Origin: Cocleimonas flava
Lineage (GTDB): Bacteria; Pseudomonadota; Gammaproteobacteria; Thiotrichales; Thiotrichaceae
Length of the DNA: 64,000 nucleotides
Reading direction: 5' to 3'
NCBI RefSeq assembly: GCF_004339015.1
Contig: NZ_SMFQ01000002.1
Span: 683,351-747,350 of the forward strand
Part shown: positions 28,152 through 39,526 of the stretch, one piece after another
Position numbering within the stretch: position 1 is the first letter of the stretch
How the letters are laid out: each line of letters opens with the position of its first letter
The notes under the pieces: model-generated
What the model saw: only the letters and a program-made list of their open reading frames with translations
Databases searched by the model: none
What the model was told of the DNA's origin: nothing
Program-made: the position numbers and the translations under genes

Positions 28152-28184
28152 AAAAAAAGTGCCTCAAAGGTGGGGGGTGCCTTT
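28152..28184 (-). repeat. G6 element copy 11
   Basis: A7-GTGCCTCAAAGGT arm, GGGGGG-TGCCTTT, abutting the stop of the minus-strand GDSL esterase gene. Terminator orientation. Confidence 0.8.
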
Positions 28185-28833
28185 ACAAAGCGCCATGATC
28201 TTTTAGCAACTGCTGAATCTCTTCGGCCATCTTCGAATAGCCTGCTTCATTGAAGTGGACGCTGTCTGATTTAAATTTGGGTTTGCGAATTAATGACGAG
28301 ATGATTTCAGCTTCGAGCGGTACCCGATGCTCTTCTGCCAGCTCGGAATATAATGGCGCAGCATCTGAGAATAATTGCTTTTTCGGCACGCCGACTAATA
28401 CCACTTGAATCCCTTCTGCTTTGGCTAAATTGATCATCGCAGACAGGTTTTTCTTGGTTTCTGAAAGGCTCTTATTGCGTAAAATATCATTGCCACCTTC
28501 CAGCAGAATCATCAGTTCTGGATTGGTTTTTTCGATTACTGTTGCCAAACGCGCCAAGCCATCTGCGGTTACTTCGCCGGATATTCCGGCATTGACTACC
28601 TGCCTACCGGTAAGTCTGGCTAAAACGCTAGGATAGCTATTCTCGGGTTTTACGCCAACACCCGAAGTTAGGCTATCGCCGAAAGCGAGAATAACGCCCG
28701 ACTCTGACACCCTGCTGAGCAATTTTTCACTGCCACATGCCTGCAATAGTAACGTTACAAACAATAACGCAAAGATACTGATCCATGATCTTTTCAGATC
28801 GACGCTTTTTGAAATGAGAATTCTGTTTACCAT
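28183..28833 (-). CDS. GDSL/SGNH-type esterase lipoprotein (TesA-like)
   Basis: A 216-residue SGNH hydrolase. Block I is ILAFGDSLTSG with the nucleophilic Ser, block II glycine is in NAGISGEVT, block III is EGGNDIL, and block V is SDSVHFNEAGY with the catalytic Asp and His. E. coli TesA is a periplasmic acyl-thioesterase/lysophospholipase; here the signal peptide ends in a lipobox LLQAC, so this copy is a lipoprotein. A decayed paralogue lies at 37498-37965. Confidence 0.9.
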   Translation of the reverse strand: MVNRILISKSVDLKRSWISIFALLFVTLLLQACGSEKLLSRVSESGVILAFGDSLTSGVGVKPENSYPSVLARLTGRQVVNAGISGEVTADGLARLATVIEKTNPELMILLEGGNDILRNKSLSETKKNLSAMINLAKAEGIQVVLVGVPKKQLFSDAAPLYSELAEEHRVPLEAEIISSLIRKPKFKSDSVHFNEAGYSKMAEEIQQLLKDHGAL

Positions 28834-31419: not shown

Positions 31420-32268
31420 ATGGACCAACAAACACCCGTTATTGCCGATCAGCAGGCTTATGAAATCAACTTGCGTTCGACGCCATGTGACCCTGAAAAA
31501 GGACACGACATAAGCGCAAAGGATTTGATCAACAAAGCCTTATTGTTTGCAGAACTTTCCATGATTGCTTATCTAAAGCCTGAAGAGACCGAAAAAGCAG
31601 CGTTGCGTCTTGGGTTTACCCGAACCACTTTCTACAATAACGACGGCTCCCAAGCCTACTCATTTGCCAACGATCAGGATATCGTGATCGCCTTTCGTGG
31701 CACCGAACCAAACGAATGGAATGATATAAAAGCCGATATAGATGCGACCAAAGCATTGGCGGAAACCGTTGGGCACGTACACCGTGGCTTTAAAAAAGAA
31801 GTGGATGATGTGTGGCCGCTATTAGAAAAAATGCTGATCTCACACAAACAAAATCTGGATAAAAAACTCTGGTTTACCGGCCATTCACTGGGTGGCGCAA
31901 TGGCATCCATTTGCGCGGGTCGTTGCCTGTTATCGCATATTGATACACGACCAGAACAAGTGCATACCTTCGGTAGCCCGAGAGTCGGCACAAAACGCTA
32001 TATCAATCACGCTAAAGTCGATTACTACCGCTGGGTAAACAACAACGACATCGTGACGCGCACGCCACCTGTGTGGCTCGGTTATCGTCATGCGGGCAAA
32101 GAAATGTATCTTGATGCACAGGGAAAGCTAAAAGAATTAAACGCGGTACAGCGCAAAGCTGACCTGTGGAAAGGTTTTGTGACAGGTTTAAAGAATAAAC
32201 AGATTGATCACTTCAGCGATCACCTGATAGATAACTACGTTGACTATATTTACCAAGAGACCTTATAA
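31420..32268 (+). CDS. class 3 lipase family protein
   Basis: A 282-residue alpha/beta hydrolase of the lipase class 3 (fungal-lipase-like) family. The early marker IVIAFRGTEPNEWND, the nucleophile motif WFTGHSLGGAMA, VHTFGSPRVG and VNNNDIVTRTPP give Ser, Asp and the usual order; the final catalytic His is likely in the C-terminal IDHFSDHLIDNY. There is no obvious signal peptide, so it may be intracellular or exported by another route. Substrate unknown, probably acylglycerols or phospholipids. Confidence 0.88.
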   Translation: MDQQTPVIADQQAYEINLRSTPCDPEKGHDISAKDLINKALLFAELSMIAYLKPEETEKAALRLGFTRTTFYNNDGSQAYSFANDQDIVIAFRGTEPNEWNDIKADIDATKALAETVGHVHRGFKKEVDDVWPLLEKMLISHKQNLDKKLWFTGHSLGGAMASICAGRCLLSHIDTRPEQVHTFGSPRVGTKRYINHAKVDYYRWVNNNDIVTRTPPVWLGYRHAGKEMYLDAQGKLKELNAVQRKADLWKGFVTGLKNKQIDHFSDHLIDNYVDYIYQETL

Positions 32269-32310
32269 GCAAATAAAGTCTGGTTTACACAGCATGCTTA
32301 AATAAACGTA

Positions 32311-32721
32311 TTAATTCGCACGAAGCTTTTCGTCTACCTGACGTTTTAACAAATCCAGTTCAATTGTATTGCGCTGCGATTGTTTTATTTTCTCTTCGAG
32401 TAATGCTGAGGTTTGCTGCAAGTCTTTACCGGCTAATAAAGATGGCATTGTAGAAGTAGAAGAAGACCTAGCTTCAACGACCGAACTTGGTTTTTTCGCC
32501 TCCAATGCATCGTATGAACCCTTATTACCACTAAATAAACCCGGACCCTGCATCATTGAATCTGCTGGTAATAATTCGGGAGAATCAAAACTAGAAGACG
32601 AACTCGAACAAGCAATCGTCAATATTGATAGTGACGCAATGCTAAGCAACTTCATCGACAGAGTCAGAGTAGAAGTCTTGAACGATCTATCTTTCGCGCC
32701 AGCATAATGTTTTACATTCAT
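32311..32721 (-). CDS. hypothetical lipoprotein
   Basis: A 136-residue lipoprotein with lipobox LTIAC at about residue 38, followed by a serine run. The mature part is Ser-rich, then ends in a helical, charged tail (KIKQSQRNTIELDLLKRQVDEKL) that could form a coiled coil. The ATG at 32721 is kept because AAGGATTCG precedes it, although this makes an unusually long N-region; an in-frame ATG at residue 23 would give a standard signal peptide. Function unknown. Confidence 0.65.
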   Translation of the reverse strand: MNVKHYAGAKDRSFKTSTLTLSMKLLSIASLSILTIACSSSSSSFDSPELLPADSMMQGPGLFSGNKGSYDALEAKKPSSVVEARSSSTSTMPSLLAGKDLQQTSALLEEKIKQSQRNTIELDLLKRQVDEKLRAN

Positions 32722-32900
32722 TTCGAATCCTTGTGAATAAATAAGGGAGGCTCTTGCCTATTGTCTTTGTAAACTACTGTAATTAAGGATGTTGACTAAC
32801 AGAGAGTTAATTTTCGGGGTTAACTCAGGTATTTATAAACCATGCAACGTTCAGTAATTTATACTATGGACAAAAGCCTCGCAGCTTTTATAAGCTCTAC

Positions 32901-33941
32901 TTAGAACTTAACTCGTGAACCAATAGAGAACAGGTTCTTGTCTTCTACGCCATCAGCATCAATCTGAGCATTTTCATAATCAGCAAATAACTCAACACCT
33001 TGTTTCAGATGATAAACGTACGCAAGGTTAATACGTTCAGCTTCCACATTGGATGCAACTTGATCTTCAGTAAGGGTGTAAGACACAGACAGGTTATGTG
33101 CGCCAAGCTTTTGCCCAATTTTGATGTAAGCACTCGTAGGATCTAACGGAGAATCATTAAGATATTGCTCACCATAGGCACCGGTAATGTTAAAACCGTT
33201 AGATGCAAGGTAAGAGGCAGACAAACCCAATTGCTGGAAATCATCAGCATCATCAGTAACATAACCGATTGCCGCGCCCACTTTAGAACCACCCGCTAGT
33301 TTCTGGCTATAACGAGCCGCAATTTCGCCTTTATCTGTTCCCGCACTCACTGCAAAACCAACAGGACCAAAGTTTAAAGAATCATAGCGAATACGATCGT
33401 TACGGCTTAAACCGTCAAAGTTATCAAATGCCTGACCGTTAGAAACAACCGCGTTACCTGATGAATCAACAAAGCTGATGCCATCGTACAAATCCTGACC
33501 CGAGTAATCAGCAATCGTAGTACCAGAGAAATCGACCTCAGAAGTACCGTTTGCCGCGCCATCGCCCTGACCAAGGCTCAACTTACCAAAACCACCCTGG
33601 AAATATAATTCACGCTTACGTGATCTGAACGCAGAACTAGAATCGGAATCATTAATATCAACCTGATCAGAAGCATTGTCCTGATATTGCGTTTCAATGT
33701 TGAAACCAACCGTAATACCAGCAACCGCATCGGTCTCACCCGTTATACGAAAACGTGTTCCGCTGTTCGTGTTATCTGTGAATAAAACATCATCATCGAC
33801 GCCGTTATCAGCAAAGGTTAACGCACGACTCACTTGACCAGAAATCTTCACTTCTGACTTAGCAAAAGCATGAGGAGCAATTGCAAAAGAACCAATGAGC
33901 AATGCGCCCGTTGTCATTTTTATACTTTGTTTGATTACCAT
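32901..33941 (-). CDS. outer-membrane porin
   Basis: A 346-residue Gram-negative general porin. Signal peptide about 1-27 (ending HAFA), then KISGQVSRALTFAD and many alternating beta strands, ending in the aromatic C-terminal strand SIGSRVKF with terminal Phe needed for BAM recognition. Forms a trimeric diffusion channel. A ribosome site AAGGATAA is clear. It is divergent from a LysR gene, a typical arrangement for substrate-regulated expression. Confidence 0.9.
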   Translation of the reverse strand: MVIKQSIKMTTGALLIGSFAIAPHAFAKSEVKISGQVSRALTFADNGVDDDVLFTDNTNSGTRFRITGETDAVAGITVGFNIETQYQDNASDQVDINDSDSSSAFRSRKRELYFQGGFGKLSLGQGDGAANGTSEVDFSGTTIADYSGQDLYDGISFVDSSGNAVVSNGQAFDNFDGLSRNDRIRYDSLNFGPVGFAVSAGTDKGEIAARYSQKLAGGSKVGAAIGYVTDDADDFQQLGLSASYLASNGFNITGAYGEQYLNDSPLDPTSAYIKIGQKLGAHNLSVSYTLTEDQVASNVEAERINLAYVYHLKQGVELFADYENAQIDADGVEDKNLFSIGSRVKF

Positions 33942-34204
33942 AATATTTATCCTTAATTTCAGGCCTACCCCGCTGGAATCCTGATTTTATTTAATCCAAA
34001 AACCGCTTTTGAACGTAAAGAACAGATATTCAATACACAGCGCTTTAAGAAATTTGATACGCACGAATACTTCTCGAAAACAACACTTGCCAAAGGAGTT
34101 CAGCGGCAAATTGAGTATTTGCGATCTACGATAAATATAATAATCACTACGTTTTTTTTGATAAGTAGGCGAAAAGGGAACACGATGTTCGGAGTTACAG
34201 ACCA

Positions 34205-35119
34205 ATGAAAAATGATCACTTATCTTCATTAAAAAACCTGGCAATGTTTGCCTTGGTTGTTGATGAAGGTAATTTTAGTCGTGCCGCTAAATCCCTAGGG
34301 ATCAGCCGATCACGCGTGAGTGAGCAGGTAGCATCACTAGAAGAAAGTTTAAACAGACGATTATTTCACCGAACGACACGCAGCTTAACCTTGACGGAAG
34401 ATGGCAAATCTCTCTATCCGCACGCCGCCAACCTACTCAAAGAACTGGGCGATATTGATGAGCTACTCAATCAGGATCAGCTATCCGGATTAATTCGGGT
34501 TACAGCCACGGTAGATTTTGCGGGTCAATGGTTGCTACCTGCCTTGCAGGAATTCAATGTGATTTATCCAGAGATTAAATTCGATATCATAATTTCGAAC
34601 AAAAGCCTGGATTTGATAGAAGATCAGATAGATCTAGCGCTAAGAATAGGCAAACTAAAAGATGAATCGTTTATTGCCAGACAGCTATTCGAACAAGAAT
34701 TAATCGTTGCCGCCAACCCGGAATATATAGAAAAATACGGTCCATTTAATTCAATTGACGACCTCAAAAAAGCCACCTGGTTATTACTGCCGCAACTCCA
34801 TGAAAAAAACCAAGTCACCTTAATCAATGGCGATAAAAACATCACCTTCAAACCCGATAATTACCACATCACAGACTCACCCGACCTATGCCGAAAAATG
34901 GTTGAAAACGGAATGGGTATAGGAATCGTATTGCCGATAATGGTAAAAAACGAATCAAAGCAATACTTTCAACGCTTATGTCCTGAATGGCACAGCGGCA
35001 ATATGAATTTTTCATTGATATACCCATCTCGTCGACAGGTTTCATTACGTACTCGAACTCTGATAGATTATCTTATGAAAAGACCTGTTGGGTGCTTGAA
35101 TAGTTTTGCTGGGTGTTGA
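34205..35119 (+). CDS. LysR family transcriptional regulator
   Basis: A 304-residue LysR regulator. The DNA-binding helix-turn-helix is FALVVDEGNFSRAAKSLG and ISRSRVSEQVASLEESL; the effector domain starts at about residue 95. The DNA-binding phrase and RLFHRTTRSLTLTEDG match the LysR/AaeR-type subgroup. It is divergent from the porin gene and probably controls it, although no T-N11-A palindrome was fixed in the 263-base gap. Confidence 0.9.
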   Translation: MKNDHLSSLKNLAMFALVVDEGNFSRAAKSLGISRSRVSEQVASLEESLNRRLFHRTTRSLTLTEDGKSLYPHAANLLKELGDIDELLNQDQLSGLIRVTATVDFAGQWLLPALQEFNVIYPEIKFDIIISNKSLDLIEDQIDLALRIGKLKDESFIARQLFEQELIVAANPEYIEKYGPFNSIDDLKKATWLLLPQLHEKNQVTLINGDKNITFKPDNYHITDSPDLCRKMVENGMGIGIVLPIMVKNESKQYFQRLCPEWHSGNMNFSLIYPSRRQVSLRTRTLIDYLMKRPVGCLNSFAGC

Positions 35120-35250
35120 ATAGAGTTTGTCAATAATTGAATTAATACTTAGTTATAACAAGCAATCGAAGCGTAGCCAAGAAAACTTCGGAACGAAGTG
35201 GCGACTAGCCAAAGGGTAAGTTTAGCAATTTGTTAAAATTAAAAAATAAT

Positions 35251-35276
35251 AAAAGGTGTATAGAGGGGGGGGACTT
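35251..35276 (-). repeat. G6 element copy 15 (degenerate)
   Basis: AAAAGGTGTATAGAGGGGGG then GGACTTAA; the AAGTA core is altered to TAGA. It lies just upstream of the HipA-like gene, not at any transcript end. Confidence 0.45.
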
Positions 35277-35370
35277 AATTGTAACGTTGCCACTAATTAT
35301 TATAGATTTATTCAACTTAAATTAAGTTGTAGTATGTATAATAAAATTCTAATACTCAAATACTCTGTAT

Positions 35371-36099
35371 ATGACTAAAAGTATAATTGAAATACTTGGC
35401 CGCTCAACACAAGGAGCTACAAGACCTTACATTTGTCGTGCGGATGATGATGACTTATATTTTGTAAAAGGTAATGGGGCTGGTCGACAGAGTCAGGTAT
35501 ACGAATGGGTTTGTGGGCATCTTGCTATCAAACTTGGTTTGCCAATTGCCCCATTTAGACAAGTTCTTATTCCTGAAGAGTTGGTGGAAGGTAATTCAGA
35601 TTATTCTGAGCTTAAGAGTGGATTAGCTTTTGGTTCACAAAAACAAATATTAATGGAATTAAACTACGCAGGTATAAAGCAAGTACCTATCGACTTACAA
35701 AGAACTGTTTTAGCATTTGATTGGTGGATTAAAAACGAAGACAGGACTCTGAGTGAGCTTGGAGGTAATCCAAATTTATTCTGGGACCCAGATGAAAAAA
35801 GTTTAATTGTGATTGATCATAATCAAGCTTTTGACCCTACTTTTTCAGTTCATAGCTTTAAGAGCGAGCATGTATTTAGACAGCAAAACAACAGTCTTTT
35901 CAATCACGCCCTCTATCGGTCTGAATATAGGGATAAGTTTCAGATGGCACTACGTAGTTGGAATGAAATTACTGATGGACTTCCTGAAGAGTGGTACTAT
36001 TCGGATCCAGAGAAGACCGTCAAGGCTAATTTTGACTTGAACTCTATGTTTAATATTTTAAATCGTTGTAACGATGATTCACTATGGGAGGAAACATGA
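35371..36099 (+). CDS. HipA-like kinase (HipA_2 type)
   Basis: A 242-residue HipA-fold kinase without the usual N-terminal subdomain. Visible marks are DDLYFVKGNGAGRQSQVYEW (ATP-loop lysine and Glu), VYEWVCGHLAIKLGLPIAPF, WWIKNEDRT with a catalytic Asp, and LIVIDHNQAF with the metal-binding Asp/Asn. Canonical HipA phosphorylates glutamyl-tRNA synthetase under control of HipB; no HipB is here. Instead the gene overlaps a DUF3037 gene by four bases (ATGA), a recurring pair in bacteria of unknown role, often found in accessory regions. Local base composition is AT-rich compared with flanking genes. Confidence 0.82.
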   Translation: MTKSIIEILGRSTQGATRPYICRADDDDLYFVKGNGAGRQSQVYEWVCGHLAIKLGLPIAPFRQVLIPEELVEGNSDYSELKSGLAFGSQKQILMELNYAGIKQVPIDLQRTVLAFDWWIKNEDRTLSELGGNPNLFWDPDEKSLIVIDHNQAFDPTFSVHSFKSEHVFRQQNNSLFNHALYRSEYRDKFQMALRSWNEITDGLPEEWYYSDPEKTVKANFDLNSMFNILNRCNDDSLWEET

Positions 36100-36932
36100 A
36101 TAAAATAGCTTGCCAATATGCGATTGTTCGATTTACTCCATTCATTGAGACTGGTGAGTTCGCGAACATCGGTATCGTGCTTATCTCTCCTAAACTCCGC
36201 TTTTTTGGATTCAACCTTGCAAGTAAACGTTACGGAAGGATTACTCAATTTTTTAAGGAAATTAATACAAGTGTTTATAAAAACACCATAAATAACTTAA
36301 AGGATGAATTAGAAAGAGTATCTTTCAGTTTAGAAAGTAATCCTTTAGCAAACAATGACATAGACTACCCAATCAATCTTTTTCACGAGTTGACCCGAAA
36401 TAGAGAAACAATAATAAAATTTAGCAAAATTAGAACTGTATTGACAGATAACCCAGAAAAGGAATTGAAAAAGTTATTTGAATATTATGTAGAACGAAAC
36501 TTCATCACTAAAAAATATGAAGAGGAATTACTTGAAAACAAGGTCCGTCAATTATTAAATGAAGCTGAACTTGGAGATTATTTTAAAAATGAAAGAATTG
36601 GCGATGAAACTTATCACGTTCCATTCCCTTTCGTGAGACATAGTAACAATAATCCCCAAAAAATAATTAAGCCTCTTCATTTAGCTCATGATGATTCAAC
36701 CAAAATATTTAATCATGGAGCAGCTTGGATTTATAAAATAAATAAATTAAAAGAGAAACGCTTATTGGTTGCTAATAATGTGCTCTTTGCCATATCTTCT
36801 CCTCAAAGAGATACTGAAAATAGATTTGGAGCATATGAAGAAATTAAACAAGAACTTATTGAAACAGGAGTTCAGGTTGTGCCTTATCAAGATGAGAGCA
36901 ATGATAAAATTTTAGACTTTGCATTGAGATAA
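36096..36932 (+). CDS. DUF3037 domain protein
   Basis: A 278-residue protein beginning MNKIACQYAIVRFTPF. The segment ETGEFANIGIVLISPK is the diagnostic DUF3037 N-terminal motif. The start at 36096 is chosen over one four codons upstream because GGAGG lies eight bases before it, giving the ATGA overlap with the kinase. The charged C-terminal half (residues 120-278) has no recognised family. It is the partner of the HipA-like kinase; the pair may form a toxin-antitoxin or defence-type module, but that has not been shown. Confidence 0.8.
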   Translation: MNKIACQYAIVRFTPFIETGEFANIGIVLISPKLRFFGFNLASKRYGRITQFFKEINTSVYKNTINNLKDELERVSFSLESNPLANNDIDYPINLFHELTRNRETIIKFSKIRTVLTDNPEKELKKLFEYYVERNFITKKYEEELLENKVRQLLNEAELGDYFKNERIGDETYHVPFPFVRHSNNNPQKIIKPLHLAHDDSTKIFNHGAAWIYKINKLKEKRLLVANNVLFAISSPQRDTENRFGAYEEIKQELIETGVQVVPYQDESNDKILDFALR

Positions 36933-37035
36933 ACCTAAGCTAAACAGTACCAAAATCTTACATATTAAGGAACTCCATTAGATTACTAATGAAAGCCCCT
37001 AAATGGCAGAGAAAGAGAGAAGCTTAAAACAACAC

Positions 37036-37061
37036 AAGCACCCATTGGGTGCTTTTTTTTT
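37036..37061 (+). terminator. Rho-independent terminator after the HipA/DUF3037 pair
   Basis: AAGCACCC-ATT-GGGTGCTT, 8-bp stem, followed by T9. It lies about 100 bases after the DUF3037 stop. Confidence 0.9.
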
Positions 37062-37370
37062 AATCTGGAATCATTGCGCTACCCTATTTTTAATAACAGT
37101 GCTCTATTCATCAATGCATGAGTAGCTAAAGGGTCGGTTTCGGCAACTGTTTACTCTGCCTAATTCTTCACCATTTTTTTAATACTAACAAGGTTGATCG
37201 GCGTGGAATTATGCGCAATTTACTTACTGCTAAACTTATACCTATCAACTGGGATAAACGTCATATTTTTTGTTGGAATAATTGAGTCAGAGTTACATTT
37301 AACATATCTGAAAAAACAGCCTAATAGTAGTGAGGGTCATTTTCGTAATTTTTAGATATCAAAACTATCT

Positions 37371-37495
37371 AGAGTGCTTAGCTTTTGCTTCAGATCAAGG
37401 CGCAGCCGCTCGCAGAAAGTCTGAGCATACAATTTGTATGTGATGCCTTCGAGAACAGCTGCAACGCAGAGCTGGTACAAAAGATGAGTGCTCTA
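37371..37495. repeat. 125-bp structured repeat, copy A
   Basis: Shares a long stretch with 45398-45521: ATCAAGGCGC, then a nested hairpin, then CAACGC-GAG-TGG and AAGATGA. Inner stem CATACA/TGTATG and outer stem GCAGC/GCTGC. Both stems are replaced by different but still complementary bases in copy B, so pairing is conserved. Confidence 0.8.
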
Positions 37496-37497
37496 GG

Positions 37498-37965
37498 CTA
37501 TAAGGCACCATTATCAATTAAGAGCTGATAAATCTCTTCGGCCATTTTCTGGTAGCCGGTTTTATTGAAATGCACCATATCGGATTTATACGATCGTGTG
37601 CGGAGCAAGCTGGAGATTAATTTGCCATCAAAAACCAGTTTATGTTCTTCTGTCAGCTCTTTATAGAAAGGCGCAACATCGGAGAAAAGTTGTTTTTGTG
37701 GTACACCGATCAATAACAGCTGTACGCACTGCGTTTTTGCCAATTCAATCATTGCCGCTAGCTTCTGCTTGGTTTACTTTAAGTTGCGATTACTTAAAAG
37801 ACCATTACCGCTTTGCAGCAATATCATTAGATCAGGATTGGTTTCTCCAATCACATCGCCAAGCCTTGCCAGACTTAGTTCAGTGACTTCCATCGATATC
37901 CCTATATTCACTATTTTAAAGTCACTAAGCAGGGCTAATCCAACGGATAGCTGTGTTGTTTAGTC
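37498..37965 (-). pseudogene. decayed GDSL esterase (paralogue of 28183-28833)
   Basis: Minus-strand translation aligns with the intact esterase at 28183 along its C-terminal two thirds: VTELSLARLGDVIGETNPDL, MILLQSGNGLLSN, LLIGVPQKQLFSDVAPF and SDMVHFNKTGYQKMAEEI. An in-frame TAA sits at 37774-37776, and a frameshift lies near 37940, where HSYP is in another frame. The GDSL block with the nucleophile is missing. The GGNDI block reads SGNGL, so the copy would be inactive anyway. The final 84 codons could still be an open frame, but this is a gene remnant. Confidence 0.85.
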
Positions 37966-38072
37966 GTTCTGGATAGTGGTTGGTGATTGATTCTCATGCG
38001 TTCAATTATGTAAGAAAATATCCTAGACAATAATTGAGCTGATGAACCGTTCTTGAGCTGATAATGAATGCT

Positions 38073-38106
38073 GAAAAAGTGGCTATAATTAAGGAGGTGT
38101 CTTTTT
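38073..38106 (-). repeat. G6 element copy 16 (degenerate)
   Basis: AAAAAGTGGCTATAATTAAGGAGGTGTCTTTTT: the G-run is interrupted (GGAGG). Immediately after the stop of the minus-strand membrane gene; terminator orientation. Confidence 0.55.
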
Positions 38107-38115
38107 ATAACGCTT

Positions 38116-38646
38116 TTACGCTTTTTTAAGCGAGTGTGCAGGTGACTCGCTTGACGGCTCAGCATAACTTATCGATTTGACGATTTCTCGCATCAGCGGA
38201 TATACAACAACGACGGATACCAAGAGTGCAAATGCCAGTATCGCTAAATAGATGATCATATAGTGTTCGTAGTCCATGATTGGGGCGACTACTCGCGCAG
38301 CGCCTACTAAGGCGGCATAAATCCACGAGCTTGTATTGATTGCGGTGAAAAGGCACGAGACGATGACAATGCGTTGTGCTTTCTGGCGTGATTTAAAGCT
38401 CGGGAAGACTAATAGATGCAATAACAATCCATTGATCGTTAGCACGCTGACGACTGTTATTTTTGCTGCTAATTTGGAGTTGGCAAAGATGAGCTCTATA
38501 TCCAGTCCTGGTTTAATCGCTAACAGCGCTATTCCGGTAAGCCATAGTAGAACGAGCAATGTGGTGATTTTTTTACCAAGCTGATGCACTTCTGTTACAT
38601 CTAGTTTTCTTGATGTGATTATTTTCACATCTGTGCTGACGATCAT
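38116..38646 (-). CDS. hypothetical four-helix membrane protein
   Basis: A 176-residue integral membrane protein with helices near residues 28-46, 62-82, 92-115 and 128-150. The first helix region (TTLLVLLWLTGIALLAIKPG) and the conserved-looking LAAKITVVSVLTINGLLLH suggest a small heme or redox membrane family like the DUF2214/CopD-type helices, but two invariant histidines cannot be assigned, so I do not name it. The C-terminal tail is Ser-rich. No clear ribosome site. It stands alone with a degenerate G6 element after it. Confidence 0.6.
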   Translation of the reverse strand: MIVSTDVKIITSRKLDVTEVHQLGKKITTLLVLLWLTGIALLAIKPGLDIELIFANSKLAAKITVVSVLTINGLLLHLLVFPSFKSRQKAQRIVIVSCLFTAINTSSWIYAALVGAARVVAPIMDYEHYMIIYLAILAFALLVSVVVVYPLMREIVKSISYAEPSSESPAHSLKKA

Positions 38647-38981: not shown

Positions 38982-39227
38982 ATGTCACGAACAATTACTG
39001 TCGATACAGGTAAAGAGCTACTTGGTTTCATTGATAATCTTGTTGAATCCGGCAGTTATAAAACCAAGAGCGAAGTAGTGCGAGAAGGTTTACGTTTACT
39101 TAAAGAGCAACAGGCCAGTTCAAAGCTTGAAGCTTTACGTCAACTTATTGATGATGGAGAAAATAGCGGGAATTTAACAGAGTGGAATGTTGATACCTTC
39201 CTTGATCGTATGAAAGCAAAAACTTAA
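38982..39227 (+). CDS. parD: ParD-type antitoxin (CopG/RHH)
   Basis: An 81-residue antitoxin. The N-terminal ribbon-helix-helix (RTITVDTGKELLGFIDNLVE, then YKTKSEVVREGLRLLKEQQ) is typical ParD/CopG and binds the tandem operators upstream. The C-terminal half is acidic and should wrap the toxin. AGGATG before the ATG is a good ribosome site. ParE begins two bases after its stop, so they are coupled. Possibly part of the accessory block between 35.1 and 39.6 kb. Confidence 0.92.
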   Translation: MSRTITVDTGKELLGFIDNLVESGSYKTKSEVVREGLRLLKEQQASSKLEALRQLIDDGENSGNLTEWNVDTFLDRMKAKT

Positions 39228-39229
39228 GA

Positions 39230-39526
39230 ATGGCAAACAGAGAAATTCTTCTTCGACCGCTAGCCGAGAAAGATTTAGAAGCTATTTATGACTACAGTTA
39301 TCAAGAGTTTGGTGAAAAACGTGCCGTTGAATATATTCATAATTTGAACAAGGCCTTTATCAAAATTGCCGATAATCCTAACTTAGGCAGCCAATGTAAT
39401 TATGTAAAATCAGGCTTGTTGAGTTTTCACGTTATTTCTCATATTGTTTTCTTTAGAGCAACTAAGACCCAAATTTCCATAATACGAGTACTGCATAAAT
39501 CTATGGATTATCCGCGTCACTTTTAA
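39230..39526 (+). CDS. parE: ParE-type toxin (RelE/ParE superfamily)
   Basis: A 98-residue ParE toxin. LRPLAEKDLEAIYDYSYQEFG and the C-terminal ISIIRVLHKSMDYPRHF are family hallmarks. Characterised ParE toxins inhibit DNA gyrase. There is no ribosome site of its own beyond the end of parD, consistent with translational coupling that keeps toxin below antitoxin. The module probably stabilises the adjacent accessory stretch. Confidence 0.92.
   Translation: MANREILLRPLAEKDLEAIYDYSYQEFGEKRAVEYIHNLNKAFIKIADNPNLGSQCNYVKSGLLSFHVISHIVFFRATKTQISIIRVLHKSMDYPRHF

Follow-up and report, generated by a model that had tools for sequence, protein, structure and literature searches.

Described HipAD systems

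Operons in which a HipA-like kinase gene is followed by a DUF3037 gene are known as HipAD, and the primary HipAD paper is reportedly that of Brenes and Laub in 2025. DS-6, since renamed HipAD, protects E. coli and requires a catalytic residue of its kinase, and a DUF1829 domain has been reported in DS-6B (PMC13092281). The same two-gene core is present in the Retron-Sda1 operon. In this one operon, deletion of the kinase abolished defense against Bas51, deletion of the DUF3037 gene was toxic, and the reverse transcriptase and ncRNA were dispensable for defense (PMC12548924). The C-terminus of the Retron-Sda1 DUF3037 protein was also reported to be similar to a type III retron DNA-binding protein (PMC12548924). 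Among phages, PhiR5_1 of E. coli (PV340545) has, between cI and kil, a pair whose members are labeled HipA toxin and HipD antitoxin. In PHROGs, the kinase and the DUF3037 protein studied here both fall into phage families with no assigned function (phrog_3162 and phrog_5137). The initial annotation of the locus studied here considered such pairs to have no established role, which does not hold given that the HipAD/DS-6 and Retron-Sda1 pairs are experimentally anti-phage (PMC13092281, PMC12548924).

A putative HipAD pair in Cocleimonas flava

The window analyzed here is a stretch of 64,000 nucleotides from Cocleimonas flava. As initially annotated, a HipA-like kinase gene and a DUF3037 gene occupy positions 35371–36932, and both open reading frames have Pfam matches. 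The hipA-like gene (35371–36099, + strand) encodes a kinase of 242 amino acids, of which residues 5–241 match HipA_2 (PF20613; E 2.7e-94). The hipD-like gene follows directly on the same strand (36096–36932, + strand) and encodes a protein of 278 amino acids (hereafter HipD), with DUF3037 (PF11236; E 5.4e-27) at residues 8–132 and an additional C-terminal domain. In PADLOC, both components of PDC-M66 are matched with no apparent difference, namely PDC-M66A by the kinase (E 9.7e-13, a modest score) and PDC-M66B by HipD (E 6.9e-25). Together with the predicted models, the catalytic residues of the kinase, and the identity of HipD to its PhiR5_1 counterpart, these matches point to a putative toxin/effector and a putative antitoxin/regulator, respectively.

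The order of a HipA_2 kinase gene and an overlapping DUF3037 gene is shared with HipAD/DS-6 and PhiR5_1, as are the catalytic residues and homology along most of both proteins. Compared to PhiR5_1, the kinase is 32% identical over residues 4–208 and HipD is 27% identical over residues 6–276. Apart from this low identity, the window copy differs from that of PhiR5_1 in being chromosomal and located in no recognizable prophage. DUF1829, reported in DS-6B, was matched by neither the window HipD nor the PhiR5_1 HipD in a Pfam search that covered E values up to 10. The difference from Retron-Sda1 lies in the lack of adjacent retron genes; no retron reverse transcriptase is present among the genes adjoining hipAD, and Rfam gave no match within the window. 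The HipBA and HipBST systems also combine a HipA-fold kinase with a partner protein. However, the window pair has neither the helix-turn-helix antitoxin HipB nor HipS, its kinase lacks the N-terminal subdomain, and its partner is encoded downstream and belongs to another family. The absence of HipB, also claimed initially, agrees with the flanking genes, which are a LysR gene and a broken GDSL esterase gene, neither of them HipB-like. The LysR gene, ending 251 nt upstream of hipA, is the nearest regulator.

Taken together, the window pair is quite likely a stand-alone chromosomal HipAD (DS-6/PDC-M66) anti-phage toxin-antitoxin module. The defense or toxin-antitoxin role first proposed is thus probable, based on the PADLOC matches to PDC-M66A and PDC-M66B, the homology to PhiR5_1, and the published relatives. 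The pair is newly recognized and is ordinary for the HipAD family; the HipAD system itself was already known. This reading is supported by gene identity, operon architecture, an intact active site, near-full-length homology, gene pairing, and accessory location. Points against it are the low identity to the phage pair (27–32%), the report of toxicity upon DUF3037 deletion from a single operon in the papers surveyed, and the absence of another clear defense system among the window matches. By analogy with the relatives, we infer the activity of the window copy (toxicity and phage defense), its kinase target, and its trigger.

Operon organization and base composition

The stop codon of hipA and the start codon of hipD overlap by 4 nt (ATGA; 36096–36099, + strand), confirming an initial observation, and a Shine-Dalgarno-like GGGAGG lies just upstream. 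The ATG at 36096 is the likely start of hipD judging from the sequence, and a longer open reading frame starting at 36084 is not needed. An overlap of exactly 4 nt was found in 93 of 95 related pairs, a count for which the in-frame start nearest the overlap was picked (ATG in 90 of the 95) and which includes many near-identical viral loci. Because the overlap is the same in so many pairs, it is not a product of chance. Translational coupling of hipA and hipD is expected.

The strong terminator described after the pair was recovered as an intrinsic terminator at 37036–37061 (+ strand), 104 nt downstream of the hipD stop, with an 8-bp stem (37036–37054), a T-run, and an RNA fold z of −2.3. Upstream of hipA, a 251-nt AT-rich intergenic region (35120–35370, + strand) is presumed to contain the hipAD promoter. 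A palindrome ending about 41 nt 5' of hipA, CAACTTAAATTAAGTTG, was rejected as an operator, as it is not significant (p ~0.12) and is absent from relatives. The low GC content noted initially was borne out by the base composition: the pair has 34.3% GC, compared with 41.1 ± 2.8% for segments of the same size, and ranks within the lowest 1.5%. For hipD alone, the GC content is 31.3% (lowest 0.3%).

The kinase and HipD proteins

Both catalytic motifs named in the initial annotation, NEDRT and VIDHNQAF, are present in the kinase. Residues K33, E45, D124, R125, N133, N135, D149, and H167 are invariant in all 47 homologs, and the active site, as judged from the sequence, is intact. The predicted model (pLDDT 94) has a kinase fold, with CtkA of Helicobacter pylori as its best structural match (Z 13.6), although the identity to CtkA is 14% and the biology is different. 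Other structural matches include PI4K-II (Z 13.3), Shewanella HipA (Z 11.9), and E. coli HipA (Z 10.5). Full-length Shewanella HipA can be aligned to the model only from its residue ~145–149, which makes the window kinase a minimal HipA core; the subdomain that lies ahead of the kinase core in HipA is what the 242-residue protein lacks. At E values up to 10, a PDB sequence search with the kinase returned nothing.

The predicted HipD model shows two domains (pLDDT 93.4, pTM 0.70), and a PDB sequence search with HipD returned weak lipocalin matches only. The C-terminal domain (about residues 140–278; 36513–36929, + strand) has a PD-(D/E)XK-like fold in the model. It matches the restriction enzymes BstEII (Z 9.4) and BsoBI (Z 9.0), as well as Cdn1, VC1899, Can2, and CdiA-CT toxins (Z 7.6–8.5), with Z scores slightly above the level of chance arrangements. 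Seven of the eight top structural matches (chains) are known PD-(D/E)XK proteins. In addition, a viral-model search with HipD gave ERCC4, DUF2726, VSR, and other nucleases of the PD-(D/E)XK class at low significance. The catalytic (D/E)xK of such nucleases is missing in this domain: with the register inferred from strand order, residue 190, two before K192 and the position expected to be acidic, is A, I, V, or L in all 47 sequences. K192 is kept in 44 of the 47 and E143 in 46. The predicted model thus suggests a dead nuclease fold with moderate confidence, given that the Z scores barely exceed the chance level, and this domain may possibly act as a DNA sensor. Furthermore, in three (G023, G176, and G235) of the eight genomes of the class with DUF3037 above the cut-off, the DUF3037 match lies in a shorter open frame (131–210 amino acids) beside a more divergent kinase. 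These shorter frames suggest DUF3037 as the core partner, to which the C-terminal part was added.

HipA phosphorylates a translation factor of the aminoacyl-tRNA synthetase type. In the mechanism that we propose, the 242-residue HipA is a minimal HipA-fold Ser/Thr kinase that would halt growth, and its substrate would probably be such a factor as well. HipD, translated from the overlapping start, would bind and restrain HipA, with the DUF3037 domain as the putative inhibitory part and the C-terminal domain as the putative sensor. Upon infection by a phage, HipD would be disturbed, and the kinase, once free, would arrest the cell and abort the infection.

Genomic location

Among 12 genomes of the same genus, HipA_2 is present only in that of the window and is absent from the other 11. 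The pair lies in a variable slot (32262–37496) that also contains a 136-residue open reading frame, a porin gene, and the LysR regulator gene. This slot was delimited by comparison with one informative relative, G011, which is the closest and has a draft genome. Both flanks (left to position 32261 and right from 37497) are present in G011, mostly at 80–90% identity. Where the window has porin, LysR, and hipAD, the G011 slot carries gnd and an unrelated two-gene unit. The two G011 contigs involved end in the same GAAGAAGCT repeat and therefore probably adjoin. In agreement with the initial annotation, these patterns indicate that the window hipAD is accessory and was probably acquired horizontally. 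Boundaries of a mobile element were considered and rejected, as neither a tRNA nor noteworthy repeats border the slot and each intergenic flank occurs only once in the genome.

The parDE genes (38982–39526), initially cited as a hint of horizontal acquisition, are not part of an island, because they sit on the conserved right flank and are syntenic in G011, which has no hipAD. ParD is 96% identical to its G011 homolog and ParE 73%, and this disparity points to either divergence or an exchange of the ParE toxin. Adjacent to the slot, the GDSL esterase gene (37498–38165, − strand) is a pseudogene with an in-frame stop and an altered 5' half. It is intact (214 amino acids) in G011, and a relative with 72% similarity is found at 28184–28638. 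A sequence of approximately 110 nt at 37383–37494 has copies with 76–78% similarity at three further sites of G011, one of them L067:5066–5173. It is possibly a dispersed repeat; no second copy was reported in the genome of the window.

The two-gene unit in the G011 slot (L067:14519–15129 and L080:1–2756) encodes two proteins, first a long one that has an EEA repeat as well as a HEISH metalloprotease-like motif, and then one of 323 amino acids with a hydrophobic C-terminus that is probably membrane-spanning. The unit has no Pfam match above the cut-off and no PADLOC match, and is a possible uncharacterized accessory system. Within the window, no other clear defense system was found, with PADLOC giving isolated single-member matches only for the 49 open reading frames searched.

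Distribution and association with restriction-modification genes

The pairing of hipA and hipD is near-obligate across bacteria and prophages. Among the retrieved loci, a kinase gene is directly upstream of 121 of 126 HipD-like open reading frames, in a redundant set that includes near-identical viral loci. Three of the five unpaired cases represent one broken locus, and a fourth is truncated at the end of a contig; for the last (L115), no kinase was found. DUF3037 is above the cut-off in eight of 274 genomes of the class, and HipA_2 is adjacent in all eight. Pairs of the PhiR5_1 type are present in 283 of 5,426 E. coli genomes at an identity of at least 95%, and relatives occur in 20 plasmid records. 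Two records with hipA relatives that are labeled as plasmids look like misfiled chromosomes, namely a 2.2-Mb N. gonorrhoeae sequence (NZ_CP119140.1, 1538902–1539600) and a 4.9-Mb A. caviae sequence (NZ_AP026896.1, 955387–956112).

The five most similar loci found (L002–L006; kinase identity 52–61%) and L009 (47%) all have hipA directly behind type I restriction-modification (R-M) genes. The hsdS stop overlaps hipA by 1–4 nt in L002, L003, L004, and L009; in L005, hsdS is 25 nt ahead of hipA, and in L006, hsdR is 54 nt ahead. The window groups with L002–L004 with full support, on which FastTree and IQ-TREE agree, and the grouping of further R-M-linked loci is weaker. In the window, hipAD is not behind hsd genes, and a type I specificity subunit (PF01420) is missing from the genome, which makes this copy an orphan. 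No R-M genes were found in the examined flanks of L007, L008, L010, L013, the phages, or the plasmids. The patterns for the genome scan were derived from the window protein, and the sampling therefore favors close relatives.

Alternative explanations

In one alternative, which refines rather than excludes the HipAD reading, HipAD of this clade serves as an accessory to type I R-M. The nuclease-like domain of HipD would sense either the condition of the R-M complex or DNA that is cleaved, unmodified, or altered by phage, and a block of restriction would lead it to free the kinase. The window copy would then be a remnant that has outlived its R-M partner. The hsdS or hsdR genes directly ahead of hipA in six loci, the position of the window as sister to L002–L004, and the predicted fold of the HipD C-terminal domain are consistent with this explanation. 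Nevertheless, we consider it unlikely, given that the prophage, the plasmids, and four other loci lack R-M genes in the examined flanks and that the retron-linked relative defends without R-M. Moreover, the linkage may be functional or may merely reflect shared defense islands, and the bias of the scan toward close relatives also counts against it. Similarly unlikely is a more specific model, in which HipD combines a kinase-inhibiting DUF3037 domain with a dead PD-(D/E)XK sensor of DNA state or anti-restriction, HipAD of this clade backs up (guards) type I R-M, and the window copy, a guard that has been orphaned, now acts by itself.

A plain addiction or stabilization pair, with a toxic kinase neutralized by HipD and a role in DNA retention or growth control rather than defense, would fit the toxin-antitoxin-like operon, the accessory location, the plasmid-borne relatives, and the lack of an R-M partner in the window genome. 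This explanation is decidedly unlikely, as relatives are experimentally anti-phage and are tied to type I R-M operons and to a prophage immunity region. It is very improbable that the pair is decayed and retained by chance: the adjoining esterase pseudogene is compatible with decay, but both open reading frames are full length, all invariant catalytic residues are kept, and so are the ribosome-binding site, the overlap, and the terminator.

Implications for the HipAD family

Under the preferred reading as a stand-alone HipAD module, a defense function is assigned to a gene pair that was earlier taken to have none. The R-M linkage and the nuclease-like half of HipD go beyond the literature surveyed, and the interest lies mainly in this half and in the R-M-embedded sister clade. 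The presence of hipAD within type I R-M operons and a nuclease-like HipD domain without the catalytic acid both provide leads on the HipAD trigger. If HipD senses the failure of restriction, this would be a new link between abortive infection and restriction.
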